A DNA stretch of 64,000 bases from Mitsuaria sp. PDC51 (GTDB taxonomy: Bacteria; Pseudomonadota; Gammaproteobacteria; Burkholderiales; Burkholderiaceae_C): assembly GCF_900113225.1 (NCBI RefSeq), contig NZ_FOZE01000002.1:248001-312000 (forward strand). Direction: 5' to 3'. Shown piece after piece: positions 443 to 39,675 of this stretch (positions within the stretch are counted from its first letter, which is position 1; each line of letters starts with the position of its first letter). The notes below the pieces were generated by a model. It saw only the letters and a list, made by a program, of their open reading frames with translations. It had not been told where the DNA came from and made no database searches. The position numbers and the translations under genes are program-made.

Positions 443-3250
443 ATGACCGTCCCTTCCCCCCGTGTCGCCAAACGTCCGCCGTGCCCACCGAGCCTGCCGC
501 GAGCCTGCGCGGTCGCCGCGCTGGGCGCGCTCTGCGGCCTCGCGCAGGCGCAGGTCGCCGCGCCGGAGGCCGCCGCCTCCGCCCCGCCGCAGCAGCTGCA
601 GCGGGTGCAGATCACCGGTTCCGCGATCAAGCGCATTGCCGACGAGGGGGCGCTGCCGGTGCAGGTGCTGACCCGCAACGACATCGTCAAGGCCGGCGTC
701 ACCACCGCGGCCGAGCTGATGGCGACGGTCTCCTCGCTCAGCAACAACCTCACCGACGGCGTCAGCATCGGCACCGGCGGCTTCCGCGACCAGATGGGCT
801 TCAATTCGGCCAACCTGCGCGGCCTGGGCACCTCGTCGACGTTGGTGCTGCTGAACGGCCGGCGCATGGCCAACTTCGCCTCGCCGGGCGACGACAACGG
901 CGTCGACCTCAACAACATCCCGGCCGCGGCGATCGAGCGCGTCGAGGTGCTGCTCGATGGCGCGTCCGCGATCTACGGCACCGATGCGATCGGCGGCGTC
1001 ATCAACTTCATCACCCGCAAGGACTACCAGGGCCTGCAGCTGGACGTCTACGCGGGCAAGTCCGGCGAGGGTGGCGCGGGCAAGCGCACCGCGTCGATCG
1101 CCGCCGGCCATGGCGACCTGGCGCGCGACGGCTTCAACCTGATGGGCGTGCTGGACCTGCAGAAGACCGGCGCGCTGCGCACCTCGCAGCGCGACTTCAT
1201 CTCCGACCTGCGCATTCCGGAGCGACTGCCGCACCTGCTGTCCTCGGCCAGCTTCCCCGGCAACATCCGCCTCTCGGGCGACCAGCGCGACTACCTCGAG
1301 TCGCAGGGCTTCGCGATCAATGGCCGGCCCATCACCACGCGCACGATCAACCTGAGCGCGCCGACCTGCCAGCCGCCGCACTCCCTCTACCTGCCTGACG
1401 GCATTGGCGGCGTCGACGGCTGCACCTACGACTACATGCGCGACCTGGAGCTCTATCCGAAGACGGACAAGGGCAGCTTCCTGGGCCGCGGCGTGCTCAA
1501 GCTGGGCGACCGGCACGAGGCCTTCATCGAGGCCGCCTACACCCGCAGCAAGAGCTGGTACGTCGGCACCAGCAACCGGATCGACGCGGACCTGGATGTC
1601 TCGATGATCCCGGCGCTGGCGGCGACCGGCCTGGGCGACGCGCTGCCGGACGACCGGCTCATCACCGTGCGCACCCGCATGCTGGAGGCCGGCCCGCGCG
1701 CGAGCGAACTCACCAGCACCGGCAGCCGCATCGTCGTCGGCATGACGGGCACGCTCGGCGCCTGGGACTACGACTGGGGCTACAACCACAGCGTCAACCG
1801 AATATCCGACCGCGACGTGCGTGGCTACCTGCCTGAGGACGCGACGATGGCCGCCTACGCCGACGGCCGGCTGAACCCCTTCGGCCCGTCGAGCGCGGAG
1901 GGCTTGGCCTTCCTGCGCGACAACAACATCAACCAGGAAGTGCGCCGCGCCCGCGGCACGATGGACAGCCTGGACGCGAAGGTCACGCGCAGCCTGATGG
2001 CGCTCGGCGGCGGCGATCTGGCGCTGGCGCTCGGCGCGGAACTGCGGCGCGAGAAATCCACGTCGGCGGCCAGTGATCTGCTGATTTCAGACAACATTCT
2101 GGGCGACTCGTCGCCGGGCGACGCGCAGTTCACCAGCAATTCCCGCAAGGTGTGGGCGGCGTATGGCGAGCTGCTCGCGCCGATCACCAAGCAATGGGAA
2201 CTGCAGTTCGCACTGCGCCATGACCACTACCAGAAAATCGGCGCGACCACGAACCCGAAGATCGGCCTGCGCTACGCGCCGATGGACAAATTGACCTTCC
2301 GCGCCTCTGCCGGCACCGGCTTCCGCGCGCCGTCGATGAACGACCTCTACCGCTCGGTCAAGGTCAGCGAGACCGCCACCCTGCCCGATCCAGTGTGCAT
2401 GCGCGAGAACGACAACGACCTGGGCTTCTGCGCCAACAACTGGGAGACGCGGACCTATTCGAATGCCAACCTGAAGCCGGAGAAGTCGCGGCAGTTCTCG
2501 ATCGGCATGCTCGCGGACCCGACGCCGGAATGGAGCTTCGGCCTGGACTACTGGCGCGTCGAGAAGCGCGACCTGATAAGCACGCTGGGCGACGACGTGA
2601 TCCTCGCCAACCTCGACAAGTACGAGCCGCTGGTGCATCGCTACAACGAGGACGAAGGCATTGCGGGCTGCGACTACGACCCCGACGACTCCGAGATCTG
2701 CTTCATCGAGTTGCGCAAGGAGAACCGCGGCAAGCAGAAGGCGTCCGGGCTGGACATCACGCTGCAGTACCGCTCGCCGGCGACCGCGATGGGGCGCTTC
2801 GGCGTCAAGCTGGTGGGGACGTTGACGCTGAGCTCGAAGAAGCAGACCGGCGACGGCGATCCCTACATCAGCAACCTCGGGCGCTTCGTCACCGACGGCG
2901 TCGTGCAGCGGTGGCGTCATCGGGTCAACTTCGATTGGTCGCGCGGTCCGTGGAGCATCAACCTCGCGAACTCGTTCTACAGCGGCTACGACGACCAGAA
3001 CTCGGCGATCGATACCAACACGGGACTGGTGGTGGGGAAGAACAAGGTCAAGGCGTATTCGCTGTGGGACCTGTCGGGCGGCTGGGAGGCGACCGCCGCG
3101 CTCACGCTGCGGGCGGGGGTGAAGAACCTGTTCAACACGGCACCGCCGTTCTCGAACCAGGCTTACTTCTTCATTTCGGGCTATGACCCGAGCTATACGG
3201 ATCCGCGCGGGAGGTTCTTCTACTTGGCGGCGTCGTATCAGTTCAGGTGA
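443..3250 (+). CDS. TonB-dependent outer-membrane receptor
   Basis: A 935-residue outer-membrane receptor that should import a substrate across the outer membrane using TonB-ExbBD energy. A signal peptide (about 1-36, ending AQA) is followed by a plug domain from about residue 53 (QRVQITGSAIKR) through NLRGLGTSSTLVLLNGRR and RVEVLLDGASAIYGTDAIGG to about 175. The rest is a beta-barrel ending in an aromatic-rich strand (FFYLAASYQFR). No TonB box can be named with certainty and no N-terminal signalling domain is present, so it is a simple transducer. The start is supported by AGGGAG seven bases upstream. The substrate is unknown; the plug style resembles the large receptors of Xanthomonas and Roseateles-type genomes linked to plant polymers or peptides. 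No neighbouring sigma/anti-sigma pair is present. Confidence 0.93.
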   Translation: MTVPSPRVAKRPPCPPSLPRACAVAALGALCGLAQAQVAAPEAAASAPPQQLQRVQITGSAIKRIADEGALPVQVLTRNDIVKAGVTTAAELMATVSSLSNNLTDGVSIGTGGFRDQMGFNSANLRGLGTSSTLVLLNGRRMANFASPGDDNGVDLNNIPAAAIERVEVLLDGASAIYGTDAIGGVINFITRKDYQGLQLDVYAGKSGEGGAGKRTASIAAGHGDLARDGFNLMGVLDLQKTGALRTSQRDFISDLRIPERLPHLLSSASFPGNIRLSGDQRDYLESQGFAINGRPITTRTINLSAPTCQPPHSLYLPDGIGGVDGCTYDYMRDLELYPKTDKGSFLGRGVLKLGDRHEAFIEAAYTRSKSWYVGTSNRIDADLDVSMIPALAATGLGDALPDDRLITVRTRMLEAGPRASELTSTGSRIVVGMTGTLGAWDYDWGYNHSVNRISDRDVRGYLPEDATMAAYADGRLNPFGPSSAEGLAFLRDNNINQEVRRARGTMDSLDAKVTRSLMALGGGDLALALGAELRREKSTSAASDLLISDNILGDSSPGDAQFTSNSRKVWAAYGELLAPITKQWELQFALRHDHYQKIGATTNPKIGLRYAPMDKLTFRASAGTGFRAPSMNDLYRSVKVSETATLPDPVCMRENDNDLGFCANNWETRTYSNANLKPEKSRQFSIGMLADPTPEWSFGLDYWRVEKRDLISTLGDDVILANLDKYEPLVHRYNEDEGIAGCDYDPDDSEICFIELRKENRGKQKASGLDITLQYRSPATAMGRFGVKLVGTLTLSSKKQTGDGDPYISNLGRFVTDGVVQRWRHRVNFDWSRGPWSINLANSFYSGYDDQNSAIDTNTGLVVGKNKVKAYSLWDLSGGWEATAALTLRAGVKNLFNTAPPFSNQAYFFISGYDPSYTDPRGRFFYLAASYQFR

Positions 3251-3322
3251 GCGGGAATGGCGTGAGGTGCGGGGGTCGAGACTGGCTGAGGCGATGACCG
3301 GTCTGCCGGCGTTTCAGCGGTG

Positions 3323-3640
3323 CTACGGTTCCTCGTACAAGGCGAGCCCACAATTACCGCAGCATCGCTTCGCGCCGAGGCGAGGCTCTTGAGCAGCGAG
3401 CCAAGGGCTTCTGCATCGAGGGCACGGCCAACGCGAAATACGAAAGGCCGCCCAACCCCACGCCATACACCAGAGCGAGATGCCGCCGAAGAAGACAAGC
3501 TCTCCGGAGAGACCGAGCATCAGCTTCGTGATAACGAGCAACAGGATGGTGCCTGGCAGTCCCAATACCAACAGCAAACCGGCGGTCCAGTTCCTTCGAC
3601 GGTACTCATTCCATGCGCCAGAGACGTTCGGGCTCGACAT
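3323..3640 (-). CDS. Small membrane protein with C-terminal zinc ribbon
   Basis: About 105 residues. Two hydrophobic segments (WTAGLLLVLGLPGTILLLVI and ELVFFGGISLWCMAWGWAAF) are followed by a compact Cys motif CPRC...CCGNCG near the C terminus, which looks like a zinc ribbon facing the cytoplasm. The ATG at 3640 (MSSPNVSG) is preferred over an upstream in-frame ATG at 3703 because the extra N-terminal residues look non-coding. The function is unknown. It opens the accessory stretch after the TonB receptor and points towards it. Confidence 0.7.
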   Translation of the reverse strand: MSSPNVSGAWNEYRRRNWTAGLLLVLGLPGTILLLVITKLMLGLSGELVFFGGISLWCMAWGWAAFRISRWPCPRCRSPWLAAQEPRLGAKRCCGNCGLALYEEP

Positions 3641-3786
3641 GCGCCTGAGGATAGCAAGTTGCTGTCCGCTTCCGGCCCAAGCCGCGGCGACGTGTCTACG
3701 CATCTAGACTCGCCGCTCACCAGAGATTGGCAGCACAAGGGCGCACAACGCAGGCCGCCCTGAGGGCGGTGGCTGCAGAGTAGTCG

Positions 3787-4329
3787 TCAAGCCTCATCGC
3801 GGAGTAGTTTGGCCTCGGGGTGCGTCGCCATGTAATGGGCCGCCTGCTCAGGCGTGATGCCCACCAGAATAGTTGCAGTGCTGTCCCAGCAGACCAACTC
3901 GAACAGTGCGCCATCCAGTTGCGGCGTCAAGGCATTGGCATCCCGCCAGAATCGCGCATTTCCGTCCGCAGCCGGCGGCCGTAGCACCTCAACACGCTTG
4001 TCGCACGGGAAAGCACTGAATACGCCCCACATGAACTGCAGGTTGGAATACAAGAGGCATCGAGCCAGCTCTGGACCTGTCACCCAGCCGTCGGCCTGGG
4101 GAAGGCCATCAAAGGTAATGTTCGTCTCGATGTCACTCACGTACCAGTCAAACTCGGATGCGTCGACGCCGAGGGCGCGCAAAGTGCCACCGACGTCCGT
4201 GAAGTACGGGACTGCGTTCGTTGATTCGAGCAAGACGTTCATGACCGTCTGAAGTGAAATGTTGCCGCGAAGAGCGACCTTACCGCGGATAGGCTTGCAA
4301 CGGACATAAGGCACCAAATTGAAACCCAT
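3787..4329 (-). CDS. Hypothetical protein, about 180 residues
   Basis: A soluble-looking, Trp- and acid-containing protein with no signal peptide or membrane segment and no motif I can assign. Codon use differs from the neighbouring core genes and the local GC is lower. The ATG start lies within the first codons of the divergent gene at 4319, so the two start regions overlap by about 11 bases, which is unusual for divergent genes. It could be an immunity-type or other accessory protein, but nothing in the sequence proves that. Confidence 0.65.
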   Translation of the reverse strand: MGFNLVPYVRCKPIRGKVALRGNISLQTVMNVLLESTNAVPYFTDVGGTLRALGVDASEFDWYVSDIETNITFDGLPQADGWVTGPELARCLLYSNLQFMWGVFSAFPCDKRVEVLRPPAADGNARFWRDANALTPQLDGALFELVCWDSTATILVGITPEQAAHYMATHPEAKLLRDEA

Positions 4330-4627
4330 CGAGCTAATGATCGTTCTCGCGTGGCTGCTCGCGCCGTTTTTGATCGTCGCTGCGGCGATCTTCGTCGTCT
4401 GTCAGCGCACGGAACTTCGCGCAGCGCGAGCGCGGAACGCAGCGGGGCTTGTCATCTTGTGCGCTCTATCAGCCTTGATGTCGTTAGGGGCGCTCATGTG
4501 GGGACCGCCGATACTCGGTCAATACGTCGGCATGCGTGATGAGCCTTTCATGTGGGCGCCATTCGCTGGTCTGGCTGTCGCTGTGTCGTTGCCCATTGCG
4601 CTGCGGTGGACCAGATGTCGTAAGTGA
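4319..4627 (+). CDS. Small membrane protein of unknown function
   Basis: About 102 residues with three predicted membrane segments (MIVLAWLLAPFLIVAAAIFV, the AAGLVILCALSALMSLGAL stretch, and the FAGLAVAVSLPIAL stretch). The first in-frame start is TTG at 4319 with an AAGG ribosome-binding site seven bases upstream; an ATG at 4337 gives a protein six residues shorter. No family was recognised. Its start overlaps that of the divergent gene 3787-4329. Confidence 0.55.
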   Translation: MKPIELMIVLAWLLAPFLIVAAAIFVVCQRTELRAARARNAAGLVILCALSALMSLGALMWGPPILGQYVGMRDEPFMWAPFAGLAVAVSLPIALRWTRCRK

Positions 4628-4702
4628 CTACCTCTCCCGGTCCAGGCGGAAGCCGCAGGTGGCTTCGTAGCGGGAGCGGACGCGGCGGGATAACCTAGGG
4701 CG

Positions 4703-5032
4703 ATGGACGGCGTCGCTTCTTCGCTTGTGATGGCTATTGGGATGACGATGGCCTTGGTTGCTGCAGCTCAGATGGCAAGCACCATTCTGTTGTGGAGCAG
4801 GCATCCAACTGAAGCCCGACTCGCATTTGGATTCTGGTCTTCAGTACTAACCCTGCTTGCCAGCATCCCGCTGTTCGCTCTGTCCCTCCTGCTGACCTTG
4901 ACATCAGTTGGTTGGTGGCCGGCTCTGATCTGTCTAGGGCTTGTCGGCTGGGCCACTGGCTTGCTGGCTCGTGCCATCGAGTCAAGGCGATTGGCTCGAC
5001 AAGCGACCAAGAGGCCCATGTTTCGAAGGTAG
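4703..5032 (+). CDS. Small membrane protein of unknown function
   Basis: A 109-residue protein with three or four hydrophobic segments (residues about 5-30, 40-70 and 70-92) and a basic C-terminal tail (RRLARQATKRPMFRR), so the C terminus is probably cytoplasmic. No family was recognised. It follows 4319-4627 on the same strand in the lower-GC accessory stretch and may be co-transcribed with it. Confidence 0.55.
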   Translation: MDGVASSLVMAIGMTMALVAAAQMASTILLWSRHPTEARLAFGFWSSVLTLLASIPLFALSLLLTLTSVGWWPALICLGLVGWATGLLARAIESRRLARQATKRPMFRR

Positions 5033-5433
5033 TCCACACGCTATGCCCACTCCCAGCTTGAAGCGCAGGTTCGCCTCGCAGCGAGGCTGCGGGAAAACGC
5101 GTCCTCATTGCGAGGTGGCTGAGAATCGACCTCTCAGATCGACGCAGGATCGGCGATCGGCGCCTCGCTAATGGTGTCGAGACCCCGAAGACGGACCGTT
5201 GGAGGAGTTCTCACACAGCCTCCAGCGGAAGCGGACATTTCACGGAGGCCATGCGCATCATTCGGAATGACCTATCCCAAGGAGCCATAGCCTCGCCAGA
5301 AAAGTGCCGATGTATGAGCCGACTGCAGCGAACTTGACCGCATCCCAGGGGGCGGGAAAATCCGCCCCTCTCCTCGTTACAAAGTGCGTAGATTGCCTAG
5401 GCAAACACGTTTGGAGTGAGGGGAGGTGGGTGA
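5033..5433. other. Intergenic region upstream of the MazG/TS-like/UDG cassette
   Basis: No convincing gene was found in these 401 bases; a 62-codon open frame starting at 5304 has no coding character. The right half holds a hairpin at 5349-5368 (GGGGCGG / CCGCCCC around a 6-base loop) and a perfect palindrome at 5393-5404. The cassette promoter is probably between them. The left half shows nothing recognisable. Confidence 0.5.
5393..5404. promoter_or_regulatory. 12-bp palindrome TTGCCTAGGCAA, candidate operator
   Basis: A perfect inverted repeat lies 29 bases upstream of the start of the MazG-like gene. Position and symmetry suit a dimeric repressor site or the region around a promoter. No regulator gene is adjacent; one of the cassette proteins, or a regulator elsewhere, would have to bind it. 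Confidence 0.4.
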
Positions 5434-6342
5434 ATGTCAAGTACATCGAGCCGCAAGGACCGCGGCCAGAGGCCGATTCGTACGTTTGCTGAGTACCAGG
5501 CGACGGTCGAGCGAACCGACGAACGCAAGAAGGTCATCGTGTCTTTGCTCGGATTGGCCGGTGAACTCGGGGACCTCAATTCGACCTTCAAGAAGCTGGT
5601 GCTGCAGCGCGACAGCCGAACGCTTCGCGAGGACCTTCGCGAGGACATCGGCGACATCCTCTGGTACCTGACCAGCCTAGCTGTCCAATACAAGATTCCC
5701 TTGCAAGAGGCAGCTCGGGAGAGTGCACTCAAGGCGGAGCGTCTCTATTCCCAGGGCGAGGTGAACCGCTTCGATGATGGTTTTGATGACGAAGAGCGCC
5801 TGCCGCGTAGGTTCAGCGTTACGTTCTCAGAGAAGCGCAACGGCAAGCAATTGCTGGTACGCATCATGGTGAGTGGCGTAATCGTCGGCGACACCCTTAC
5901 CGACAACGCTCACAAGGGGGATGGCTACCGTTATCACGACGTTTTCCACCTGGCCTATGCGGCGGTTCTAGGGTGGTCCCCGGTCCTTCGCGGCCTCTTG
6001 CGGCGCAAGCGCAAGAGCAACCCGCGCATCGATGAAATCGAAGACGGTGGCCGTGCGGCTGTGGTGGAAGAGGCCATCTCGGTGCTTGTTTTCAACGAGG
6101 CGCCGCAGCGAGCTTGGTACAGCGAGGAGAGTTCGGTCGACATCGGCCTGCTAAAGACCATTATCCGCCTGACCGCCGGGCTGGAAGTTCACCGCTGTAC
6201 TGCGAAGCAATGGAAAGCTGCCATCCTCCAGGGTTACGCGGCGTTCGGTCAGTTGAAGGACAACTGTGGCGGCCGCGTCGATGTGGACCTCGACCGCCAA
6301 ATCTTGACCTACAACCCGCCGCGCCCCGAGGGGGCGCTGTGA
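5434..6342 (+). CDS. MazG-like nucleotide pyrophosphohydrolase with extra C-terminal domain
   Basis: A 302-residue cytoplasmic protein. Residues about 35-105 carry the all-alpha MazG-type signature: GLAGELGDL (E44, D47) and EDIGDILWYL (E70, D71, D74), the acidic residues that bind Mg2+ in (d)NTP pyrophosphohydrolases. Two canonical Glu positions are Asp here. Residues about 120-300 form a second domain with YRYHDVFHLAYAAVLGWSP and a following EDGGRAAVVEEA helix; I cannot name it with certainty. Known family chemistry is NTP to NMP plus PPi. The start has a strong GGGGAGG site. The stop overlaps the next gene's GTG start, so the two are translationally coupled. Inferred role: nucleotide-hydrolysing member of a three-gene system. 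Confidence 0.85.
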   Translation: MSSTSSRKDRGQRPIRTFAEYQATVERTDERKKVIVSLLGLAGELGDLNSTFKKLVLQRDSRTLREDLREDIGDILWYLTSLAVQYKIPLQEAARESALKAERLYSQGEVNRFDDGFDDEERLPRRFSVTFSEKRNGKQLLVRIMVSGVIVGDTLTDNAHKGDGYRYHDVFHLAYAAVLGWSPVLRGLLRRKRKSNPRIDEIEDGGRAAVVEEAISVLVFNEAPQRAWYSEESSVDIGLLKTIIRLTAGLEVHRCTAKQWKAAILQGYAAFGQLKDNCGGRVDVDLDRQILTYNPPRPEGAL

Positions 6343-7046
6343 CCGCTTGCAATGTGACCGGCACCACGGCCGTTGACGCCTGGCGGGCCGGCGTTCGAGC
6401 CGTGATTGCACACGGCGAAGTCTTCAACCTATTCACGACCGTCGAGCAGCCGGCTGCTTTCGACCCGGCGTGGCTGCAGGCTCATTCGCCACGACGCCGC
6501 GGAGTTGGCGGTGATGACTTACGCGAAGTCATCAAGACCATCTTTCCGTACGACCTTGCGCAGCGTGTGGCAGAGCGTGCAAGTCTATATCGCGACTATC
6601 TAAAGAGGCACGACCGCGCCATGAGATTTGTTCGTAATCGCGGGACCTGGGGAACGTACTTCGAGCGGCTGGTTCGCTTCCCTGACCATCCTGACACAAA
6701 TCAACTCGAGACTGTCATTGGCAAGCTCGGCACTTGGCAGAAACGAAGCGGGACGAGCTTGGTGTTTCATTTGTCGACGCCCGCGCGCGATACTCCTCGC
6801 ACTCGAGGAGGTCCGTGCTGGCAGTTTGGCGAAATCGTCTGGCACCCAGGCGGACGGCTCGACCTGGTGGTGGTCTACCGTAATCACGACTTCTTCAACA
6901 AGGCGCTGGGAAACTTCATCGGCCTAGGCCAGCTTTTGAATTTCATATGCGTCGCTTCGGGCAAAACGCCCGGCCGCTTGCTATGTCATTCGGTGCATGC
7001 CTACAACGGCGGTACGGTCGAAGCATTGCGCGCCGTGGCGACCTGA
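6339..7046 (+). CDS. Thymidylate synthase-like protein
   Basis: About 235 residues, starting at a GTG that overlaps the previous stop. The C-terminal half aligns by eye with thymidylate synthase around its active site: GPCW (C160, for the catalytic PCH cysteine), YRNHDFF (R181 and D184), GNFIG (N192, for the Asn that selects dUMP) and HSVHAY (H220 and Y222, nucleotide sugar contacts). GTWGTYFERLVRF (103-114) resembles the N-terminal loop that binds phosphate. The Asn at 192, not Asp, suggests a uracil-type substrate rather than dCMP. The N-terminal half is divergent and the folate site cannot be verified, so it may be a base-modifying relative or a sensor and not a second ThyA. Confidence 0.75.
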   Translation: MTACNVTGTTAVDAWRAGVRAVIAHGEVFNLFTTVEQPAAFDPAWLQAHSPRRRGVGGDDLREVIKTIFPYDLAQRVAERASLYRDYLKRHDRAMRFVRNRGTWGTYFERLVRFPDHPDTNQLETVIGKLGTWQKRSGTSLVFHLSTPARDTPRTRGGPCWQFGEIVWHPGGRLDLVVVYRNHDFFNKALGNFIGLGQLLNFICVASGKTPGRLLCHSVHAYNGGTVEALRAVAT

Positions 7047-7052
7047 ACAGTG

Positions 7053-8156
7053 ATGGTGGATAAAGAACCGCAGTTTGTCGACCTCGTGCGCCGCGTAAAG
7101 GCGTGCAAGCGCTGCCCACGTATGGCGGACAGTGCCCGAGTGCTCGGTGCGGGCTGCGGCTCGCTCAGCGCCAAGGTGATGTTCATCGGCGAAGCGCCGG
7201 GGCGGCTCGGTGCCGACACCTCGGAGCTGCCGTTCCATGGCGACAAGTCCGGGCACAATTTCGAGTCGCTGCTGGAACAGGTGGGACTGAGCCGCTACGA
7301 CGCTTTCGTGACCAATGCGGTCCTCTGCAATCCGAAGGACACGAGCGGCAACAACGCCACACCGTCCCCCTCTGAGGTGGCCAACTGCGCTCCGTTTCTG
7401 AGGGAACAGCTAGACCTCGTGGACGCTCCCGTGGTCGTAACACTCGGTGCAGTTGCCTTGCGGGCCACGGCGATGGTCACGGCCCATACCCTCACCCTTA
7501 AGGACAGCGTTCGAAAAGCTCACCTCTGGTCAGGTAGGCAGCTCATTCCTGCATACCATCCGGGCCAGCGAGCAATGGTGCATCGCAGCTTCGCCAACCA
7601 ACTGGCGGACTACCAGTTCGTGGCCGAGACGCTGCGCCGCGGCGGGGGCGCCGCACGACGCAAGCCGTCGGCCAAAAGGAACCGAGCGTCGGAAAAGGTT
7701 GGTGCCGCAGCACGGGTGCTGCTCGAGGAAAGCGGAGAACTGAGCTACTTTGCCCTCCACAAGCTGCTGTTCATGGCCGAGGTCCGGCACCTTGAGGCAG
7801 CCTCGGAGCGCCTCACCGAGGGCTACTATGTTCGACAAAAGGATGGGCCCTATTGCGTCGAGTTGCATGCCAGCCGGCTACCTGCGCTCATCCCGGGCTG
7901 CTTCACGCGCACCGTCGGAAAGCACCTGATGGTGGGGCTCGGCCAGAAGGGCCTACTAGACGGAGCGTCACAGGTCGACCCGCTGAGTGCGGCTGCCAGA
8001 CGCACCTTGCTGGAGGTGGCGGTCAAGTACGGTCAACTGCCGGTCGGGGAGCTGAAGACGGCGGTCTACCTGACGGCGCCAATGCGCGAGTTGCTGCGCA
8101 GGGAGAGGACCCTGCGGATGAACCTGTTCAATAGCGCGGTGCTACCGGCTCCCTGA
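7053..8156 (+). CDS. Fe-S uracil-DNA glycosylase fused to a Panacea/DUF4065 domain
   Basis: A 367-residue fusion. Residues 1-195 form a family 4/5-like uracil-DNA glycosylase: motif A GEAPG (46-50), TNAVLCNP (88-94) and motif B YHPG (168-171), with four cysteines C18, C21, C92 and C112 spaced as 4Fe-4S ligands. After a basic linker (about 196-214), residues 215-355 resemble the Panacea (DUF4065/SocA-like) domain: ALHKLLFMAEVRHL and DGPYCVEL. Panacea domains are known as versatile antitoxins or adaptors. The gene follows the TS-like gene by six bases. ATG at 7053 is used; GTG at 7050 is also possible. Inferred role: DNA-targeting effector or repair arm, with the fused domain as a protein-protein regulator. 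Confidence 0.85.
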   Translation: MVDKEPQFVDLVRRVKACKRCPRMADSARVLGAGCGSLSAKVMFIGEAPGRLGADTSELPFHGDKSGHNFESLLEQVGLSRYDAFVTNAVLCNPKDTSGNNATPSPSEVANCAPFLREQLDLVDAPVVVTLGAVALRATAMVTAHTLTLKDSVRKAHLWSGRQLIPAYHPGQRAMVHRSFANQLADYQFVAETLRRGGGAARRKPSAKRNRASEKVGAAARVLLEESGELSYFALHKLLFMAEVRHLEAASERLTEGYYVRQKDGPYCVELHASRLPALIPGCFTRTVGKHLMVGLGQKGLLDGASQVDPLSAAARRTLLEVAVKYGQLPVGELKTAVYLTAPMRELLRRERTLRMNLFNSAVLPAP

Positions 8157-8318
8157 ACCGTACGACAGCACCTCCAAGTCGGAATGCAAATGGGGCCCGC
8201 TAAGGACCACTCCCAGCCTCAATTCGACTGCGACTCGGTAGCGCATGATTCAGCCGCCATCGTCATGTACCCGTCTAGTCTGCCTGGGCCGATGAGATCA
8301 ACCGCGACAGTTCAACCT

Positions 8319-8687
8319 ATGCCTAAGACGATCTACTGCTGGCGCTGCCGCATGGACATTCCCATGCTCACGGAGGAGGAGTGGGATTTGGTGGCGCCTC
8401 ACCTCGCCAACGGGGTCGACCAAATCAAAGCGTATCGGGAGGCCCATGGGTGCTCTCTTGCCGAAGCGACGCGAGAGGGCTTTGGGCGGGAGGCGCTGGT
8501 GCAGTACGAGCGCATCACTGGCTTCAAGGAAGGCAACGCGAACGCGCTGTTCCATCATCGACTGAGCCTGTACGGCCCCGCTTGCTCACATTGCGGCAAG
8601 CCGCTTAGGACCCCGCAGGCGCGCTTCTGCGCGATGTGCAGCACGCCGAGCGGCTCCATTGCTGGTGATGGTCAACATTCAAACTGA
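8319..8687 (+). CDS. Zinc-ribbon hypothetical protein
   Basis: A 122-residue soluble protein beginning MPKTIYCWRCRMDIPML. It has an N-terminal CxxC (YCWRC), a central helical part and a C-terminal double CxxC (ACSHCGKPL and FCAMC), so it probably binds zinc. An upstream in-frame ATG at 8184 is less likely because the extra residues look non-coding. Function unknown; relatives are known to me only as short hypothetical proteins. It follows the UDG/Panacea gene by about 160 bases, so membership in the cassette is doubtful. Confidence 0.7.
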   Translation: MPKTIYCWRCRMDIPMLTEEEWDLVAPHLANGVDQIKAYREAHGCSLAEATREGFGREALVQYERITGFKEGNANALFHHRLSLYGPACSHCGKPLRTPQARFCAMCSTPSGSIAGDGQHSN

Positions 8688-8751
8688 AGCGCCTCACACA
8701 CTTCGGCGAAGAGCCATGCAGCGTGCCGCGAACTCGAGACCGGTTTCGCCA

Positions 8752-9339
8752 TTACGGTCGTCGCTTATCACCTGCTCGCGTTGCACCAACGGACTCGGCC
8801 AGCGCGAAAAGCCACCAGCCCAGCGACACGATCCACAGCAAGTTGGCGAGAGCAACGACGTGCTCGGACACTCCAAACACCGTTGCAAACCCAGCTCCCA
8901 CTAGCGAAGCAATGTAGGCGACGATGTATGAATTTCTGCGCCACACATAGAGCACCATGAGCAGCGTCGCGACCTGAATGACGAAAAACAGAAAGAACAT
9001 AGGACCAGAACTGGCGCCATGCGTCTTTAATTCATGAGCATGGAACTCCCAGTCCGTCTTTGCAATCGACCAATCGGGGCACCGCGTAGACGAGTCGACG
9101 CGGATGCGATGGACTGGAATACCAACGGGACCGACCGCATGTCCGAATCGAACTCCGCGATGACGCGCCTGCCGCTCGGAGGCTAGTCGACGCTCCATGG
9201 CGGCAGTGGCCCTGACCACTCCCCGCGCCGAGGCCATTCGGAAGATCTCGCCTGGAGACCGCATCGATACGGGAATATCTGGAAGTCCGATGCAAGCCCG
9301 ATCACGCATCATTCCGCCCCCGGGCGCTCGTTTCATCAA
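8752..9339 (-). CDS. Membrane protein of unknown function (start uncertain)
   Basis: The C-terminal 80 residues contain three convincing membrane helices (FFLFFVIQVATLLMVLYV, IVAYIASLVGAGFATVFGV and VVALANLLWIVSLGWWLFAL). The preceding stretch is basic and has poor coding character. The longest frame starts at 9339, but an ATG at 9000 would give an 82-residue protein made only of the membrane part. No ribosome-binding site decides between them. No family recognised. Confidence 0.45.
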   Translation of the reverse strand: MMKRAPGGGMMRDRACIGLPDIPVSMRSPGEIFRMASARGVVRATAAMERRLASERQARHRGVRFGHAVGPVGIPVHRIRVDSSTRCPDWSIAKTDWEFHAHELKTHGASSGPMFFLFFVIQVATLLMVLYVWRRNSYIVAYIASLVGAGFATVFGVSEHVVALANLLWIVSLGWWLFALAESVGATRAGDKRRP

Positions 9340-9414
9340 TGGATCTCACGCGTCGCGAGAAACCGACCCCACGATCTCTTGGCCACTCGGCCTTGATCGC
9401 GACCACAACCACTC

Positions 9415-9963
9415 ATGAGCGCGAACCCGTACGCATCTCCAGACTTCCAAGTCGCAGACCTTCCTTCCCGACAGGCGTCCTCGGAGCCCCCGTTCTTTGC
9501 CGTCTCGCTGTCCAAGCTCGTCGTCATGAGCGTCTGCACGCTCGGCCTGTATGAGATCTACTGGTTCTATCGCAACTGGAGATGCATCAGGCACCGGGAG
9601 CAAAGCAACATCGCACCGGCGCTGAGAGCGCTGGTCGCGCTCTTCTATTGCTACCAGTGCTTTGCCCGGATTCGCGCTTACGACATCGAGAAAAATGGCA
9701 GCTCGCCCCTCGCCGCCGGGAGCTTGGCCGTCGGTTGGATCGTCGCCACCTTGCTCTGGAAGCTTCCAGATCCGTACTGGTGGCTCTCCCTGCTCGCGTT
9801 CGTGTTCCTCCTTCCCGTGCAGGCGCGCGCGAACAGCTTGAATGCGCAGGTGAGCCCACTCCACAAGCGCAATGCGTCCGTACGCGGCTGGGACTGGCTG
9901 GCCGTGATTCCCGGGGGCGCACTGCTGCTGCTCGCATTCCTTGGAACACTTCTGGCCCCTTGA
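9415..9963 (+). CDS. DUF4234-like membrane protein
   Basis: A 182-residue integral membrane protein. The segment VCTLGLYEIYWFYRNWRCIR resembles the start of DUF4234-type proteins, which have TLGLY-x2-YW near a first membrane helix. Further hydrophobic stretches lie around residues 97-112, 121-137 and 162-180. Its N terminus (MSANPYASPDFQ) is like those of other small proteins of this kind in gamma- and betaproteobacteria. The role is unknown. It is the last gene of the accessory stretch. Confidence 0.7.
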   Translation: MSANPYASPDFQVADLPSRQASSEPPFFAVSLSKLVVMSVCTLGLYEIYWFYRNWRCIRHREQSNIAPALRALVALFYCYQCFARIRAYDIEKNGSSPLAAGSLAVGWIVATLLWKLPDPYWWLSLLAFVFLLPVQARANSLNAQVSPLHKRNASVRGWDWLAVIPGGALLLLAFLGTLLAP

Positions 9964-10073
9964 CCGGGTGAGCGTACCTAGGACTCGGTCCACCCCTTTC
10001 ATCGAGCGGGAGCCCCGCCGCTTCGCGCCGGTCAAGCCACCGGTCGCCCACGTGACCCGCTCGCGACGGCGCC

Positions 10074-10970
10074 CTACCCCCTCAACCGCTCCACCGCCAG
10101 GTCAATGAACGCCCTCACCTTGCGCGACGCTCGCTTCCCCTGATGCTGCAGCGCCTGCACCGGCACGGCGGGCGGTGCGAACTTCGGGAGCACCTCCACG
10201 AGCGCCCCTGAAGCGATCTGCTCTTCGACCATGTACGACAGCACACGAGTGAGCCCAAACCCATCGCGGGCCGCGGCAATGGCGTGGTCATTGCTGTTGG
10301 TGGCGAGTCGAGCGCGGATCGGCACCGAGACGATCGGCGCATCCACGCCCGCGCCCTCACGGAACTTCCACTCCGATCCCGGCTCCAGCCCAAGCGCCGC
10401 GATCACCGAGTGCTTCGCGAGATCCTTCAGCTGCTTCGGCGTCCCGTGCTGCTTCAGGTACGCGGGCGACGCGCACAGGATGCGCCGCACCTTGGCCAGC
10501 GGCGTCGCGTGGAAGGAAGCATCCGGCAGGTCGCCGATGCGGATCGCCACGTCCACGTCCTCGCTCAGCAGGTTGACATTGCGATCCAGGAAACGGCACT
10601 CGACCTCGGTCTCCGGATAACGGGCCAGGTAGGCCAGCACCACCTCGTTCAGCTTGAGCCGCCCGTACATCACCGAGGCGCTGACGACGAGCTTGCCGCG
10701 CACCGCGCCGTGCGAGCCACTCGCCGCCTGCTCGATCTCCTCCAGTTCGCCGAGCACGCGCCGGCAGTCCTGCGCGTAGCGCTCGCCGACCTCGGTGACC
10801 TTGACCACGCGCGTGGTGCGCAGCAGCAGGCGCACGTTCATCGCCGCCTCGAGCTCGCTCACCGCGCGCGTGACGACCGGCGCGGACACGCCGAGCCGCC
10901 GCGCCGCCGCGGAAAACCCGCCCTCCTGAACGACGGCCACGAAGATGGCCATGGCATCGAGCTTGTCCAT
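10074..10970 (-). CDS. LysR-family transcriptional regulator
   Basis: A 298-residue LysR regulator. The N-terminal winged helix-turn-helix (MDKLDAMAIFVAVVQEGGFSA through about residue 60) is followed by an effector domain from about residue 90 (GKLVVSASVMYGRLKLNEVV). It is divergently transcribed from the AhpD-like gene at 11073, and a palindrome at 10975-10989 sits right by its start, so it probably controls the oxidoreductase pair and itself. The effector is unknown; a redox or quinone-like compound would fit the targets. Confidence 0.92.
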   Translation of the reverse strand: MDKLDAMAIFVAVVQEGGFSAAARRLGVSAPVVTRAVSELEAAMNVRLLLRTTRVVKVTEVGERYAQDCRRVLGELEEIEQAASGSHGAVRGKLVVSASVMYGRLKLNEVVLAYLARYPETEVECRFLDRNVNLLSEDVDVAIRIGDLPDASFHATPLAKVRRILCASPAYLKQHGTPKQLKDLAKHSVIAALGLEPGSEWKFREGAGVDAPIVSVPIRARLATNSNDHAIAAARDGFGLTRVLSYMVEEQIASGALVEVLPKFAPPAVPVQALQHQGKRASRKVRAFIDLAVERLRG

Positions 10971-10974
10971 ATCT

Positions 10975-10989
10975 TTTCTGATCCAGAAA
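10975..10989. promoter_or_regulatory. Inverted repeat in the LysR divergent promoter
   Basis: TTTCTG-ATC-CAGAAA is a perfect 6-3-6 inverted repeat, five bases upstream of the LysR start codon and inside the 102-base divergent region. Position fits a site for the LysR regulator, probably autoregulatory, although the classic T-N11-A spacing is not obvious. Confidence 0.45.
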
Positions 10990-11072
10990 GAGTCATTTCC
11001 CAGCCGCGCCGATTCTCTCCGCGGAGCGCGAGGGCCACCATCCGCTCACCCTCAACCCACCGGAGAACCGCC

Positions 11073-11624
11073 ATGAGCCGCATCCACGTCGTCGAACCCG
11101 CCACCGCCACGCCCGAGCAGAAAGCCCTGCTCGACGCGATCCAGGGCCAGCTCGGCATGGTCCCCAACTTCCTGAAGGTCTTCGCCAACTCGACCACCGC
11201 GCTGCAGGCCTTCCTCGGCCTGTATGGCATCGCCAACGGCGGCAGCCTGGACCCGCTGGACCGCGAACGCATCGCCCTGGCGCTGGCGCAGCAGAACGGC
11301 TGCCAGTACTGCGTCTCCGCGCACACGGCCATCGGGCGCAAGACCGGCCTGTCGGCCGAGGAGATCGCCGCGGCCCGCGCCGGCACCAGCGACGACGACA
11401 CCTCCGCCGCGATCCTGAAATTCGCGCGCAGCTTGATGGACAAGCGCGGCGAGGTGTCCGCGCTGGAGCTGACCGAGCTGCGTGCCGCCGGCGTCGACGA
11501 GGCGCAGATCGTCGAGATCATCACGCACGTCGGCATGAACTTCCTGACCAACATCCTGGGCAAGGCCAGCCTGGTCGAGATCGATTTCCCGAGCGTCAAG
11601 CTCGAACTGCCGACCGCGGCCTGA
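11073..11624 (+). CDS. AhpD-like carboxymuconolactone decarboxylase family protein
   Basis: A 183-residue protein of the CMD/AhpD alkylhydroperoxidase fold. The family CxxC appears in NGCQYCVSAH with a His three residues after the second Cys, as in peroxidase-active members, and is preceded by the DRERIALALAQQ helix. Such proteins act as thiol-dependent peroxidases or on carboxylactones. CGGAG upstream supports the ATG. It lies 28 bases before the PNPOx-ferredoxin fusion gene, almost certainly in one operon, and divergent from the LysR regulator. The pair suggests a stress-linked redox function. Confidence 0.88.
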   Translation: MSRIHVVEPATATPEQKALLDAIQGQLGMVPNFLKVFANSTTALQAFLGLYGIANGGSLDPLDRERIALALAQQNGCQYCVSAHTAIGRKTGLSAEEIAAARAGTSDDDTSAAILKFARSLMDKRGEVSALELTELRAAGVDEAQIVEIITHVGMNFLTNILGKASLVEIDFPSVKLELPTAA

Positions 11625-11652
11625 AGGTCCGCATCCTCACCGGGAGCTCATC

Positions 11653-13281
11653 ATGGGACGCGCCTATTCGGACATCACCTTCACCCCGACGGTCCGCGAG
11701 GTCCAGGCAGAGAAAGGCAGCCGCGAGCAGTACGCCTTCCTCGACACGATGAGCGACCGCGGCGAGGCGCTGACGCCCCGCGAGGCGCAGTTCCTCGCCG
11801 AGGCCGACCACTTCTTCCAGGCCACGGTCAGCGAGACCGGCTGGCCCTACGTGCAGCACCGCGGCGGGCCGAAGGGTTTCCTCAAGGTGCTGGATTCGCG
11901 CACCATCGGCTTCGCGGACTTCCGCGGCAATGTGCAGTACCTGAGCGTCGGCAACCTGCGCAAGGACGACCGCCTCTCGATGATCGTCGTCGACTATCCG
12001 AATCGGCGCCGGCTGAAGCTGCTCGGACGCGTGGAGCTGGTCGAGGCCGGCGTCAGCCCGCAGGGCGACGCGGCCATCGCCGCGGTGAGTGATCCGGCCT
12101 ACGGCGCGACGGTCGAGCGCGCTTTCCTGATCCGCATCGAGGGTTGGGATTGGAACTGTCCGCAGCACATCACGCCGCGTTTCACCGAGGCCGAGGTTGC
12201 GTCGCTCACCGCCCCGCTGCGCGCGCAGGTGCAGAAGCTGAAAGCGCAGTTGAGCGACGCCAAGGCGGCGCTGGCCGCTTCGCAGACGCCGTCGGCGTCA
12301 ATGCCGCCGCCATCACTGGGCGACGGGCCGCTCGCGCTGACGATCTCCGGCGTGCGCCAGCTCACGCCATCGGTGCGGGCCTTCAAGTTGAGGACCGCCG
12401 ACGGATCGCCGCTGCCGGCGGTGGTCGCCGGCGCCCACCTCGACCTACCCGTGCGCCTGGCTGATGGCACCGACTCGACCCGGAGCTACTCGATCGCGTC
12501 CAGCCCGCATCGCACCGATGCCTACGAGATCGCCGTGCAGCGCGAGCCCGAGGGACGCGGCGGCTCCCTGGCCGTGCACGAGGACTTCCAGCTCGGGCTG
12601 CGGCTCAACGCCTCGATGCCGCGGACGCTCTTCTCGCTCGTCGAGACAGCGCATCGAGCGGTGCTGATCGCCGGCGGCATCGGCATCACGCCGATCAAGG
12701 CGATGGCGCATGCGCTCGTCGCGCGGGGCGCGGCCTTCGAGCTGCACTACGCGGTGCGCTCGCGGGCGCAGGCACCGTTCCTGGGTGAGCTGGTCGACGC
12801 CTTCGGCGAGCGCGTGAAGGTCCACGCGAAGGACGAAGGGCAGCGCCTCGACGTCCAGGCGCTGATGCTCGGCCTGGGCGAGACCGATCATGTCTACGTC
12901 TGCGGGCCTTCGCGCCTGATCGAAGCAGTGTCGGCGGCCGCGCGGCAGGCCGCTGTGAGCGCCGCGCGCGTTCACGCCGAGAAGTTCAGTGCCGACCGCG
13001 CCAAGCCCGGCGACCGCGAGTTCGTCGTCCACCTGGTCCGCAGCGGCAAGGATCTGCTCGTGCCGAAGGACCGCTCCATCCTCGAGGTCGCCGAAGCGCA
13101 GGGCGTGCGAGTGCCGGCCTCATGCCGCATCGGCAACTGCGGCACCTGCGCCACGCGCGTGGTCGCCGGCACGCCCGCGCATCGCGACGACGTGCTCACC
13201 GACGCGCAGAAGGCAGATCAGCAGTTGATGTGCGTCTGCGTCTCGAGAGCGGACGGCGATGAACTGACGCTCGACCTCTGA
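11653..13281 (+). CDS. PNPOx-like / FAD-NAD(P)H reductase / 2Fe-2S ferredoxin fusion
   Basis: A 542-residue three-part oxidoreductase. Residues about 30-190 form a pyridoxamine 5'-phosphate oxidase-like flavin-binding split barrel (GWPYVQHRGGPKGFLKVLD; DDRLSMIVVDYPNRRRLKLLGRVEL). Residues about 220-445 are a ferredoxin reductase module with the FAD motif RSYSIASSP and the NAD(P)H-binding start GGIGITPIKAM. The C-terminal 90 residues are a plant-type 2Fe-2S ferredoxin with C491, C496, C499 and C529 (CRIGNCGTC ... CVC). A coiled Ala/Gln linker joins parts one and two. Electrons should flow NAD(P)H to FAD to Fe-S to the split-barrel flavin or an outside partner. Substrate unknown. Confidence 0.9.
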   Translation: MGRAYSDITFTPTVREVQAEKGSREQYAFLDTMSDRGEALTPREAQFLAEADHFFQATVSETGWPYVQHRGGPKGFLKVLDSRTIGFADFRGNVQYLSVGNLRKDDRLSMIVVDYPNRRRLKLLGRVELVEAGVSPQGDAAIAAVSDPAYGATVERAFLIRIEGWDWNCPQHITPRFTEAEVASLTAPLRAQVQKLKAQLSDAKAALAASQTPSASMPPPSLGDGPLALTISGVRQLTPSVRAFKLRTADGSPLPAVVAGAHLDLPVRLADGTDSTRSYSIASSPHRTDAYEIAVQREPEGRGGSLAVHEDFQLGLRLNASMPRTLFSLVETAHRAVLIAGGIGITPIKAMAHALVARGAAFELHYAVRSRAQAPFLGELVDAFGERVKVHAKDEGQRLDVQALMLGLGETDHVYVCGPSRLIEAVSAAARQAAVSAARVHAEKFSADRAKPGDREFVVHLVRSGKDLLVPKDRSILEVAEAQGVRVPASCRIGNCGTCATRVVAGTPAHRDDVLTDAQKADQQLMCVCVSRADGDELTLDL

Positions 13282-13350
13282 GCGATGTTCACGGCTACAG
13301 TGCGCTCGTCCCATGACCTCGCCGGCCGCCGCACGCGCAGGAGCACCCCG

Positions 13351-37503: not shown

Positions 37504-39675
37504 GTGGCCAAGGACCCCTACCGCTTCTTCCGCATCGAAGCCCGCGATCTGCTGCGGCAGATGAGCGAGGCCGTGCTCGCCGCCGAGCAGGCGCCGGCGC
37601 CCGACCTGCCGCCGCGTTTGCTGCGCCTGGCCCACACGCTCAAGGGCGCCGCCAGCGTGGTGCGACAGCCCGGCATCGCGGCGCAGGCGCACGCGATCGA
37701 GGACCTGCTGACGCCGCTGCGTGACCGTGCCGAGGCCCCTGGCCGCGCCGACCTCGACGCGCTGCTGGCGCTGATCGACGTCGCCGGCGACGCGATCACC
37801 GCGCTGGACGCCCCGGCGGCGGCCGGGGCGCCGACGCCGCCCCGGGCCGAGAGCACTGGCACCAGCACGGGTTCGGGTTCGGGTTCGGCGGCCGCGGCGT
37901 ATGAGCGCGTCCCCGACCCCGCCGGCGCGAGCGCCGTCAACGCCGGCCTCACGGGCCTCACGGGCCTCGTGGGCCTTCCCGCCGACGCGGGCACCGCCGA
38001 GCCGGACGACGCCGGGGACCCGGATCCGATCGGCGCCATCCTGACCATTCCCCAGTTGATGCCGGAGGAGCTGGACGGCCTGCTCGCCGACATCGCGCGC
38101 ACGCAGGGGCACCTCGCGCCGATCGAGCGCGCCGCAGCGCTGCTGCGCGAGCTGCGCGCCGGCCTGCAGGGCCAGCAGGAGGCCCTGGCCGGCCCGCTGG
38201 CGCGGATCGAGGACCAGATCGAGCGCGGCGCGCGCCAGCTCGCGCGCGAACTGGTCGCGCTGCGCGATGGCGCCGAGCAGCTGCGGCTGCTGCCCGCCGC
38301 GCAGCTCTTCGCGCCGCTGCAGCGGACCGCGCGCGACGCCGCGCGCTCCCAGGACAAGCAGGCCCGGCTCACCGGCCACGGCGGCGACGTCAAGCTGGAA
38401 GCGGCGCTGCTGAACGCCGTCTCCGGCGCGCTGGTGCAGATGGTGCGCAACGCCGTCGCGCACGGCATCGAGCTGCCGGCCGAGCGCATCGCCGCCGGCA
38501 AGCCGCCGCAGGGCCGGATCGAGCTGCGGATCGAGCGCCGCGGCCGCGAGGTGCTGTTCTGCTGCGCCGACGACGGGGCCGGGCTCGACCTCGAGGCAGT
38601 GCGGCGCACCGCCATCGACAAGGGCATCCCCGGGGCGGCGCGGCTCGATGACGACGCGTTGATCGAGCGCCTGCTGCGCGGCGGGCTCAGCACCGCGCGG
38701 CGCGTGGACGCACTGGCCGGCCGCGGCGTCGGCATGGACCTGGTGCGCGACACGGCCGACCGCCTCGGCGGACGCCTGACCTTGAGCAGCCGGCGCGGCG
38801 AAGGCACGACCGTCGAGCTCTGCGTGCCGCTGCAACTGGCCGCGTTGCGCGCGATCCGCGTCGGCGCCGGCGCGGTCGCCGCCTGGGTGCCGCTGGACGC
38901 GGTCGAGTGCGTGCTGCAGCGGCCGGTGCTCAACGGCGCGCACCTGATCGTCGGCGACGAACTGCTGCCCCACCTCCCGCTGGCCGACGCCCTGCAGCCG
39001 GGCCAGACCACCGCGGCGGCGCCGCGCTCGGCGCTGGTGCTGCGCGCCGGTGGACAGCGCGCGGCGCTGGGCGTGGACGCGCTGGACGGCGTCACCAGCG
39101 TCGTGCTGCGGCCGCCACCAGCGCTGCTGCCGCCGTCGCCCCTGATCGCGGGCCTGGCGCTGGACGCGGCACAGCAGCCGGTGCCAGTGCTGGCCGCCGA
39201 GGGCCTGATCGCCGCGGCGCGCCAGGCGCGGCCACGGCCGGTGCCGGCGCCGCCGCGCACCGGCACCATCCTGGTCATCGACGATTCGCTGACCACCCGC
39301 ATGCTCGAGCAGAGCATCCTCGAGGCCGCCGGCTACCGCGTGCACATGGCCGCGTCCGCCGAGGACGGCCTGGAGGCGGCGCAGCGCGAGCGCTACGCGC
39401 TCATCCTGGTGGACGTGGAGATGCCGGGCATGGACGGCTTCGAGTTCGTCGCCCGCATCCGCGGCGACGCGGCGCTGCGCCACATCCCGGCGGTGCTGGT
39501 GACCTCGCGCAACGCGCCCGAGGACCTGGCCCGTGGCAAGGCGGTCGGCGCCGACGGCTACATCGTCAAGGGCGAGTTCGCGCAGAACGAGTTCCTGGCG
39601 CAGGTCGCGCAGTTGATGGCACGCTCGGCCGGCACGGTCGACGACGACGCGGCCGTCGAGGAGCCCGCCGCATGA
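37504..39675 (+). CDS. cheA: CheA-type histidine kinase with C-terminal receiver (WspE-like)
   Basis: A 723-residue hybrid kinase starting at GTG. HPt domain with H44 (LAHTLKGAASVV), a low-complexity linker (about 100-180, Gly/Ser/Thr repeats), a central helical part, an HATPase domain (MVRNAVAHGIELP; CADDGAGLD; GRGVGMDLV), a CheW-like domain, and a receiver with D637 (LILVDVEMPGMDG). It gets signal from the receptor through the CheW proteins and should phosphorylate its own receiver and other receivers of the operon. Its last bases overlap the cheB start. Confidence 0.93.
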   Translation: MAKDPYRFFRIEARDLLRQMSEAVLAAEQAPAPDLPPRLLRLAHTLKGAASVVRQPGIAAQAHAIEDLLTPLRDRAEAPGRADLDALLALIDVAGDAITALDAPAAAGAPTPPRAESTGTSTGSGSGSAAAAYERVPDPAGASAVNAGLTGLTGLVGLPADAGTAEPDDAGDPDPIGAILTIPQLMPEELDGLLADIARTQGHLAPIERAAALLRELRAGLQGQQEALAGPLARIEDQIERGARQLARELVALRDGAEQLRLLPAAQLFAPLQRTARDAARSQDKQARLTGHGGDVKLEAALLNAVSGALVQMVRNAVAHGIELPAERIAAGKPPQGRIELRIERRGREVLFCCADDGAGLDLEAVRRTAIDKGIPGAARLDDDALIERLLRGGLSTARRVDALAGRGVGMDLVRDTADRLGGRLTLSSRRGEGTTVELCVPLQLAALRAIRVGAGAVAAWVPLDAVECVLQRPVLNGAHLIVGDELLPHLPLADALQPGQTTAAAPRSALVLRAGGQRAALGVDALDGVTSVVLRPPPALLPPSPLIAGLALDAAQQPVPVLAAEGLIAAARQARPRPVPAPPRTGTILVIDDSLTTRMLEQSILEAAGYRVHMAASAEDGLEAAQRERYALILVDVEMPGMDGFEFVARIRGDAALRHIPAVLVTSRNAPEDLARGKAVGADGYIVKGEFAQNEFLAQVAQLMARSAGTVDDDAAVEEPAA

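Follow-up and report, generated by a model that had tools for sequence, protein, structure and literature searches.

A mobile three-gene cassette of MazG_C, thymidylate synthase-fold and uracil-DNA glycosylase-Panacea proteins as a candidate anti-phage module

Results

The three genes form a mobile cassette

The stretch of Mitsuaria sp. PDC51 DNA analysed here (64,000 nucleotides, hereafter the window) carries at 5434-8156 a compact cassette of three plus-strand genes. They encode a MazG-like domain fused to MazG_C (gene A), a protein predicted to adopt the thymidylate synthase (TS) fold (gene B) and a uracil-DNA glycosylase (UDG) domain of the Fe-S, family-4-like kind fused to a Panacea domain (gene C). 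Sequence comparisons indicate that the cassette is a discrete unit that moves horizontally, and it is one architecture (type I below) of a wider group of uracil/thymine-centred modules, a view of the group that is new here. A function of the defence class is probable on this evidence, and the cassette may damage the DNA of invading viruses. That it is specifically an anti-phage module that spreads horizontally and acts by base excision is put forward tentatively, at somewhat less than an even chance.

Gene A (5434-6342) codes for 302 amino acids, gene B (6339-7046), a proposed pyrimidine-nucleotide C5-modifying enzyme, for 235 and gene C (7053-8156) for 367. The stop of gene A and the start of gene B overlap in GTGA at 6339-6342, and six bases (7047-7052) separate genes B and C; this coupling, claimed in an earlier sequence-only reading of the DNA, is read directly in the sequence. 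The composition given in that reading, MazG with an extra domain, a TS-fold protein and UDG-Panacea, was borne out by profile matches, by the predicted TS fold and by the presence of Panacea throughout the gene C family. Compared with three close copies, the cassette genes have ratios of nonsynonymous to synonymous substitution (dN/dS) of 0.06-0.11, at dS values of 0.56-1.57 that are partly near saturation; the genes are intact and, by this estimate, under purifying selection.

An alignment of TS-like proteins (A1) was used to scan genome contigs, among which records of the window's own genome may be absent; each of the 16 loci found also holds UDG-Panacea and MazG_C. Protein distance matrices of A, B and C correlate across these loci (r 0.947, 0.942 and 0.889; 16 loci, L020 left out), and none of 2000 permutations reached the three values. 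The co-occurrence that the sequence-only reading had called for was thus found, rather than scattered homologues, and chance neighbourhood is ruled out by the 16 complete loci together with the agreement of the matrices. Two loci depart from the common layout. In L021 (Bradyrhizobium) MazG_C lies on the opposite strand and belongs to the longer form found in type II, with 53% identity to that of L004. In L020 the contig edge cuts MazG_C off, so that no more than its final 78 residues remain. The remaining loci keep the order A-B-C with gaps of -86 to +32 bases (start codons assumed). At least 42 same-size contigs were common to the top-120 lists of TS and UDG-Panacea proteins, compared with an average of 1.4 when sizes were jittered; the lists were drawn from 420 and 1254 matches, so 42 is a lower bound.

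Close copies share nothing with the window but the cassette and, in two of them, its leader. Within the flanks available for the copies, and with the first 20 kb of the window compared at E 1e-10, DNA similarity begins at 5349 in L010 (the same locus as L049), at 5376 in L011 and at 5434 in L009, ends at about 8159 in each case and takes in no further flanking DNA. The cassette itself lies in a low-GC variable interval, 3252-10056, delimited by G+C content and by synteny of its flanks with a same-genus genome, G010. The G+C fraction is 0.615 in the cassette, 0.610 in the interval and 0.697 in the window outside it. In G010 both flanks are retained (559-3251 at 91.5% and 10057-13285 at 89.3%), and 13.8 kb of unrelated genes lie between them in place of the interval, in agreement with the earlier description of a lower-GC accessory stretch.

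The cassette is sporadic and additional to the host's own ThyA. Counting the window's genome, the TS protein was matched in 3 of 100 relatives and in 4 of 399 genomes of the order. For MazG_C the counts were 2 of 229 at class level and 4 of 398 at phylum level; the carriers of MazG_C other than the window's genome are of types II, III, III and IV. The six distinct TS-positive genomes in the two samples all have MazG_C and UDG beside TS: the window's own genome, G005 and G1029 (the genome of L024) with type I, and G037, G848 and G734 with type II. These data bear on the possibility that the cassette serves housekeeping sanitation of uracil, in which MazG would act like a dUTPase, gene B as an auxiliary thymidylate synthase and the UDG in repair. 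The activities of MazG-like dUTPases, TS and UDG do form a known uracil-avoidance chain, and the genes are intact and apparently selected. However, TS and MazG_C are missing from nearly all sampled relatives, the host already has ThyA and four other UDG-superfamily matches, and the close copies have only the cassette in common. Housekeeping was rejected as the principal explanation on the grounds of sporadic distribution, cassette-only sharing and host ThyA, and we regard it as highly improbable.

No match to genes A and B was found by tblastn in 50,697 phage records, and a TS pattern scan of IMG/VR returned none. Of the 437 UDG-Panacea matches in IMG/VR, the best 80 all stop at or before residue 261, so none of these 80 shows a full Panacea domain. 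Phage cargo was rejected for the cassette on these searches. The wider group does occur on viral contigs: MazG_C loci of types III and IV, and loci with TS only, are present in IMG/VR (L058-L063). On plasmids, the best match to gene B has 33% identity, the 8 of 18 records examined belong to types II and III, and no place covers 80% of gene C. A DNA-level search of E. coli genomes gave no cassette match.

Predicted activities of the three proteins

The MazG_C domain of gene A (PF18722, residues 110-296) was recognized by Pfam with E 3.7e-80 and 268.4 bits, against a cut-off of 29.7. The N-terminal MazG domain (about residues 17-105) falls below the Pfam cut-off (E 0.01); solved MazG/DCTPP1 proteins match it by profile (best E 1.9e-7), and the predicted structure agrees, the structure search having covered residues 9-109. 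The profile of the phage MazG-like family phrog_229 spans both domains (residues 17-289, E 2.6e-26), and the A4 profile had no match at 0.01 among PDB sequences. The metal site of MazG enzymes has the pattern ExxE...ExxD. In gene A, E44, E70 and D74 are invariant in 18 of 18 sequences, while position 47 varies (D in 7, S in 5, T in 4, E and G in 1 each). In MazG_C, D163, Y165, R166, H168, D169, H172, K192, R193, D200, D204, R207, E212 and E213 are likewise invariant in all 18. Gene A is predicted to be a MazG-like NTP pyrophosphohydrolase.

Gene B had no Pfam match at E≤1. It matches the NCBIfam archaeal thymidylate synthase model TIGR03283 with E 1.3e-12 and 47.7 bits, far under the cut-off of 174.55, and its predicted structure (predicted local distance difference test, pLDDT, 90.8) has the TS fold. 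Cys160, Tyr180 and Asn192 are invariant in 17 of 17 sequences and Arg181 is present in 16. The protein therefore shows the fold, the nucleophilic cysteine and the dUMP-site arginine and asparagine of a TS, while scoring below the curated family cut-off. The position of Asn192 we take to be the dUMP-favouring site of E. coli TS. Gene B is probably not a plain thymidylate synthase, because the solved fold nearest to its model is that of AfhB, a TS-like phage dCMP hydroxylase; the earlier assignment to TS stands as to the divergent fold and probably not as to the plain activity. AfhB (PDB 9iqu, 9iqc) and the CMP hydroxymethylase MilA (PDB 5b6e and others) are 15-17% identical to gene B, and further MilA entries score 14.8-15.3 against the model, no better than true TS. 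The substrates of AfhB and MilA are dCMP or CMP, whereas gene B keeps the dUMP-type Asn192. For gene B we infer a role in modifying C5.

An enzyme of this kind could also make a mark. TS-like hydroxymethylases feed base modification in phages, and the gene B product might enter host DNA and serve there as a protective or regulatory mark, with the UDG removing the mark or attacking unmarked DNA. Genes for holo-acyl carrier protein (ACP) synthase beside one type II and one type III locus suggest further decoration there. The three genes of type I, however, come without a nuclease or a reader of the mark, and a glycosylase directed against the cell's own mark would be self-damaging. We consider such self-marking quite improbable.

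In gene C the UDG domain (PF03167, residues 36-179) was matched by Pfam with E 2.7e-25. Cys18, Cys21, Cys92 and Cys112, presumably the cluster ligands as judged from the family, and HPGQR at 169-173 are invariant in 16 of 16 sequences. The family-4 enzyme TM0511 (PDB 1vk2), an Fe-S UDG, gives a profile match of 2.2e-28 and shares with gene C the four cysteines and the overall order of motifs. In contrast to TM0511 and 4zbx, which have the family-4 motif GE(A/G)PGxxED, gene C reads GEAPGRLGAD...PFHGDKSG with insertions, so that its base preference may differ from theirs; it is also fused to Panacea. The NCBIfam type-4 UDG model scores 93.3 bits against a cut-off of 250, and the glycosylase is filed as family-4-like only. 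Its pocket motif may resemble that of family 5.

The Panacea domain (PF13274) of the window copy, at residues 235-334, scores 20.1 bits (E 1.3e-3), under the cut-off of 25.7. Among aligned members of the gene C family it was matched in 16 of 16 at E≤0.01, the best at 4.8e-9. Panacea domains are described as neutralizing many toxins by direct binding, and one Panacea protein, SocA, as a ClpXP adaptor (PMC8832971). Taken with the constancy of the fusion, this is consistent with a unit of toxin-antitoxin type, in which unchecked base excision or nucleotide depletion would be the toxin and the fused Panacea domain its inhibitor, released by phage or stress. Against it, Panacea was found in 0 of 24 loci outside type I by tblastn with the window's Panacea part, which a divergent domain could escape, and the word glycosylase is missing from the main text of the same source (PMC8832971). 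A toxin-antitoxin unit appears improbable.

The cassette belongs to a wider group of modules

We compared 41 de-duplicated loci by tblastn with representative proteins (E≤1e-3). Since the loci were seeded with cassette proteins, the counts describe compositions, not frequencies. Plasmid loci were chosen by hand: of 18 TS records 8 were taken, and of 34 MazG_C records another 4. Second copies (L001, L025-L027, L049, L052, L055-L057, L231, L232, L234), viral matches mainly over the MazG part (L064-L137) and four weak UDG matches (L235-L238) were left out; L250 and L251, both type II, stand outside the 41. Type I, with MazG_C, TS, the family-4-like UDG and Panacea, accounts for 17 loci. Types II, III and IV have seven loci each, six of them in each case with MazG_C in the stretch. 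Type II combines helix-turn-helix (HTH), ImmA, C1 peptidase and TS proteins with another UDG and, in six loci, an ACP-like protein; type III has HTH, ImmA, TS and HMUDK_hel; type IV has Nmad2 (7 of 7) and the other UDG, with a TIR-like protein in 5 of 7 and a small unnamed protein in two. Two loci hold TS and MazG_C without UDG or kinase domain, and one is of another kind.

Pfam confirmed HMUDK_hel (PF18723, a phage 5-hydroxymethyldeoxyuridine (5-hmdU) DNA kinase family) in L006 and L008, Nmad2 in L051, L062 and L023 and a ThsB-type TIR in L061; the TIR-like match in L023 had no Pfam match. The ACP-like matches are weak (E 0.026 and 0.046, with two further candidates lacking a match). Besides the two loci with annotated holo-ACP synthase, a third has a phosphopantetheinyl transferase gene beside it.

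The UDG of types II and IV and that of type I are aligned by hhalign with 68.6% probability (E 4.6e-5, 60 columns), and their conserved blocks differ. By these profiles the two families are highly divergent, yet both belong to the UDG superfamily. Their recurrence on one MazG_C core suggests that base excision is probably central to the group, and provides a concrete, testable clue to function. Genes for dCTP-deaminase-like proteins occur in 5 of the 41 loci and span types I-IV (identified by Pfam in L002, L003 and L023, by annotation in L242 and by similarity only in L233). The divergent UDG pair and these neighbours point to uracil-type bases in DNA as the focus, which strengthens the uracil/thymidine focus first proposed from the sequence.

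The same chemistry could be turned directly on phages whose DNA contains uracil or 5-hydroxymethyluracil (hmU). The glycosylase would then attack the phage genome, for which Brig1 offers a precedent (PMC11078745), and MazG_C and the TS-fold protein would destroy or revert the unusual dNTPs that the phage itself makes. Type III has HMUDK_hel where types I and II have UDG, pointing to hmU chemistry, and the type I locus L023 has Nmad2 close by. Direct restriction alone, however, leaves unexplained a host enzyme whose predicted reaction adds a C5 group instead of taking one away, and we know of no case in which a TS fold reverses such a group. We give direct restriction a low probability.

Several loci have further features. 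L023 (9116-15438, Fibrella forsythiae) combines the type I cassette with a dCTP-deaminase-like gene and, on the opposite strand, Nmad2, HEPN-like (below cut-off) and HTH genes; the same genome has a second MazG_C elsewhere. In L021 (13923-17783, Bradyrhizobium australiense) a class II ribonucleotide reductase gene, which may be plain chromosome, lies directly past MazG_C. A transposase gene interrupts the UDG gene of the type II locus L140 (5986-8181). A protein of 1104 amino acids with a metallophosphatase-like start (by eye) is encoded beside the type I cassette in L017 (8912-12226), and type II L239 and type IV L240 each have a metallophosphoesterase gene annotated next to them.

Links to defence genes

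On a Cupriavidus basilensis plasmid (L243, 2325-9428) a type IV run of TIR, Nmad2-like, MazG_C and UDG genes leads straight into SIR2 and a further TIR gene, and a CBASS phospholipase is encoded close by; the type IV set thus lies amid CBASS, TIR and SIR2 genes. In L014, Gabija genes are found 2.1 kb from the type I cassette; in L021, the PADLOC candidate PDC-S19 is 175 bp from TS. The PADLOC scan of flanks covered 110 of 181 predicted flank proteins and matched 267 families at 1e-5; the 25 listed of those 267 are mostly PtuA- and GajB-type models. When ten candidates were re-scanned at 1e-20, GajA and GajB (L014) and PDC-S19 (L021) matched and the other seven did not. Genes A, B and C themselves had no match in PADLOC-DB 2.0.0 at E≤1.

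The nearness to defence genes suggested by the sequence-only reading is thus found for several members of the wider group and not for the window's own site. Certain points weigh against an anti-phage role of the cassette. Neither of the two flank proteins scanned beside the window cassette matched PADLOC, so that its own site is not shown as a defence island; the corresponding site in G010 holds other cargo; and the counts of defence neighbours carry no background control.

Upstream leader and neighbouring genes

The sequence upstream of gene A (leader, 5349-5433, plus strand) is partly conserved. From the starts of DNA similarity given above, about 60-85 bp upstream of gene A are common to L010 and L011, and a four-way alignment keeps blocks such as TACAAA-TGCGT and CAAA. 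In the window copy the leader contains a GC-rich hairpin and a palindrome of 12 bp without mismatch, TTGCCTAGGCAA. The leader is a possible promoter or operator, judging by these features, yet the cassette includes no regulator gene. Counts of promoter-like sites (2 observed, 0.9 in shuffles) and terminator-like sites (1 observed, 3.1 in shuffles) were obtained, and an Rfam search of 3200-10100 matched no RNA element.

The interval 3252-10056 (counterpart in G010: L053, 2696-16468) is a site of variable insertions, with a TonB-receptor-like gene on one side and a LysR-type regulator gene on the other; the G010 contents include KaiC-like and histidine-kinase-like genes (both by eye). Downstream of the cassette, a same-strand gene at 8184-8687 has weak C-terminal zinc-ribbon matches and lies outside the part common to the close copies. 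The sole tRNA called in the window, a tRNA-Val at 37802-37893, has 92 bases and is long for that tRNA.

Discussion

Family membership or predicted fold, conserved residues, co-transfer and recurring partners of the cassette proteins are results of computation. We infer the individual catalytic steps, the direction of the pathway, its trigger and outcome and the role of Panacea as follows. The MazG-MazG_C protein would hydrolyse dUTP or C5-modified dUTP, keeping it from host DNA and supplying the monophosphate. Gene B would bind dUMP via Cys160 and add a hydroxymethyl- or hydroxyl-like group at C5, yielding an abnormal pyrimidine nucleotide. During phage replication, with high nucleotide kinase activity and DNA synthesis, uracil or the abnormal base would enter new DNA; the Fe-S glycosylase would excise it, leaving abasic sites that block replication; and the Panacea domain would restrain the glycosylase or sense the phage. 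That events follow exactly this sequence is doubtful. A bolder version is base-poisoning defence, in which the host makes a C5-altered deoxyuridine nucleotide, MazG_C guards resting host DNA, phage DNA incorporates the nucleotide and a Panacea-controlled glycosylase converts it into abasic sites, types I-IV being an undescribed superfamily with interchangeable excision, supply and control modules; this we think unlikely. If the base-excision reading is true, it would explain the recurrence of MazG_C, TS, UDG, dCTP-deaminase-like, Nmad2 and 5-hmdU-kinase-like domains across the mobile loci of this comparison. Both the TS-fold protein and the glycosylase might find use as new tools for unusual pyrimidines.

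As for the sequence-only reading, its observation is confirmed and its interpretation partly supported. It knew of no described system of this composition, and the exact three genes were not found described in full-text literature searches, whose coverage does not extend to key earlier computational papers. Among the predicted, unvalidated systems of DefensePredictor, the text and legend of Fig. 6F name MazG, MazG-C, UDG, HTH and a nucleotide-modification-associated domain, and one validated system has a TS domain (PMC13092281). Compared by text only, these candidates have domain families in common with the cassette, and that text and legend mention no combination of TS with UDG-Panacea (PMC13092281). 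As domains, MazG, MazG-C and UDG had thus been predicted for defence before, and the exact cassette adds a variant to that predicted kind.

With PanAT toxin-antitoxin modules, as described in PMC8832971, gene C has the Panacea domain in common. Unlike in PanAT, the domain is fused to a glycosylase within a three-gene cassette. Brig1, a glycosylase of the UDG superfamily, is a proven anti-phage protein that acts through abasic sites; it immunizes alone and excises alpha-glucosyl-hydroxymethylcytosine (PMC11078745). The structure reported to match Brig1 best, that of the S. tokodaii family-4 UDG (4ZBY), also belongs to the PDB entries close to gene C in sequence (4zbx/4zby), and the two proteins are likened through this common relative and the published description. 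Gene C differs from Brig1 in being fused to Panacea and coupled to nucleotide enzymes. If the proposed mechanism is true, glycosylase immunity would reach beyond a lone enzyme, Brig1, and take in coordinated pathways in which a base is supplied as well as excised.

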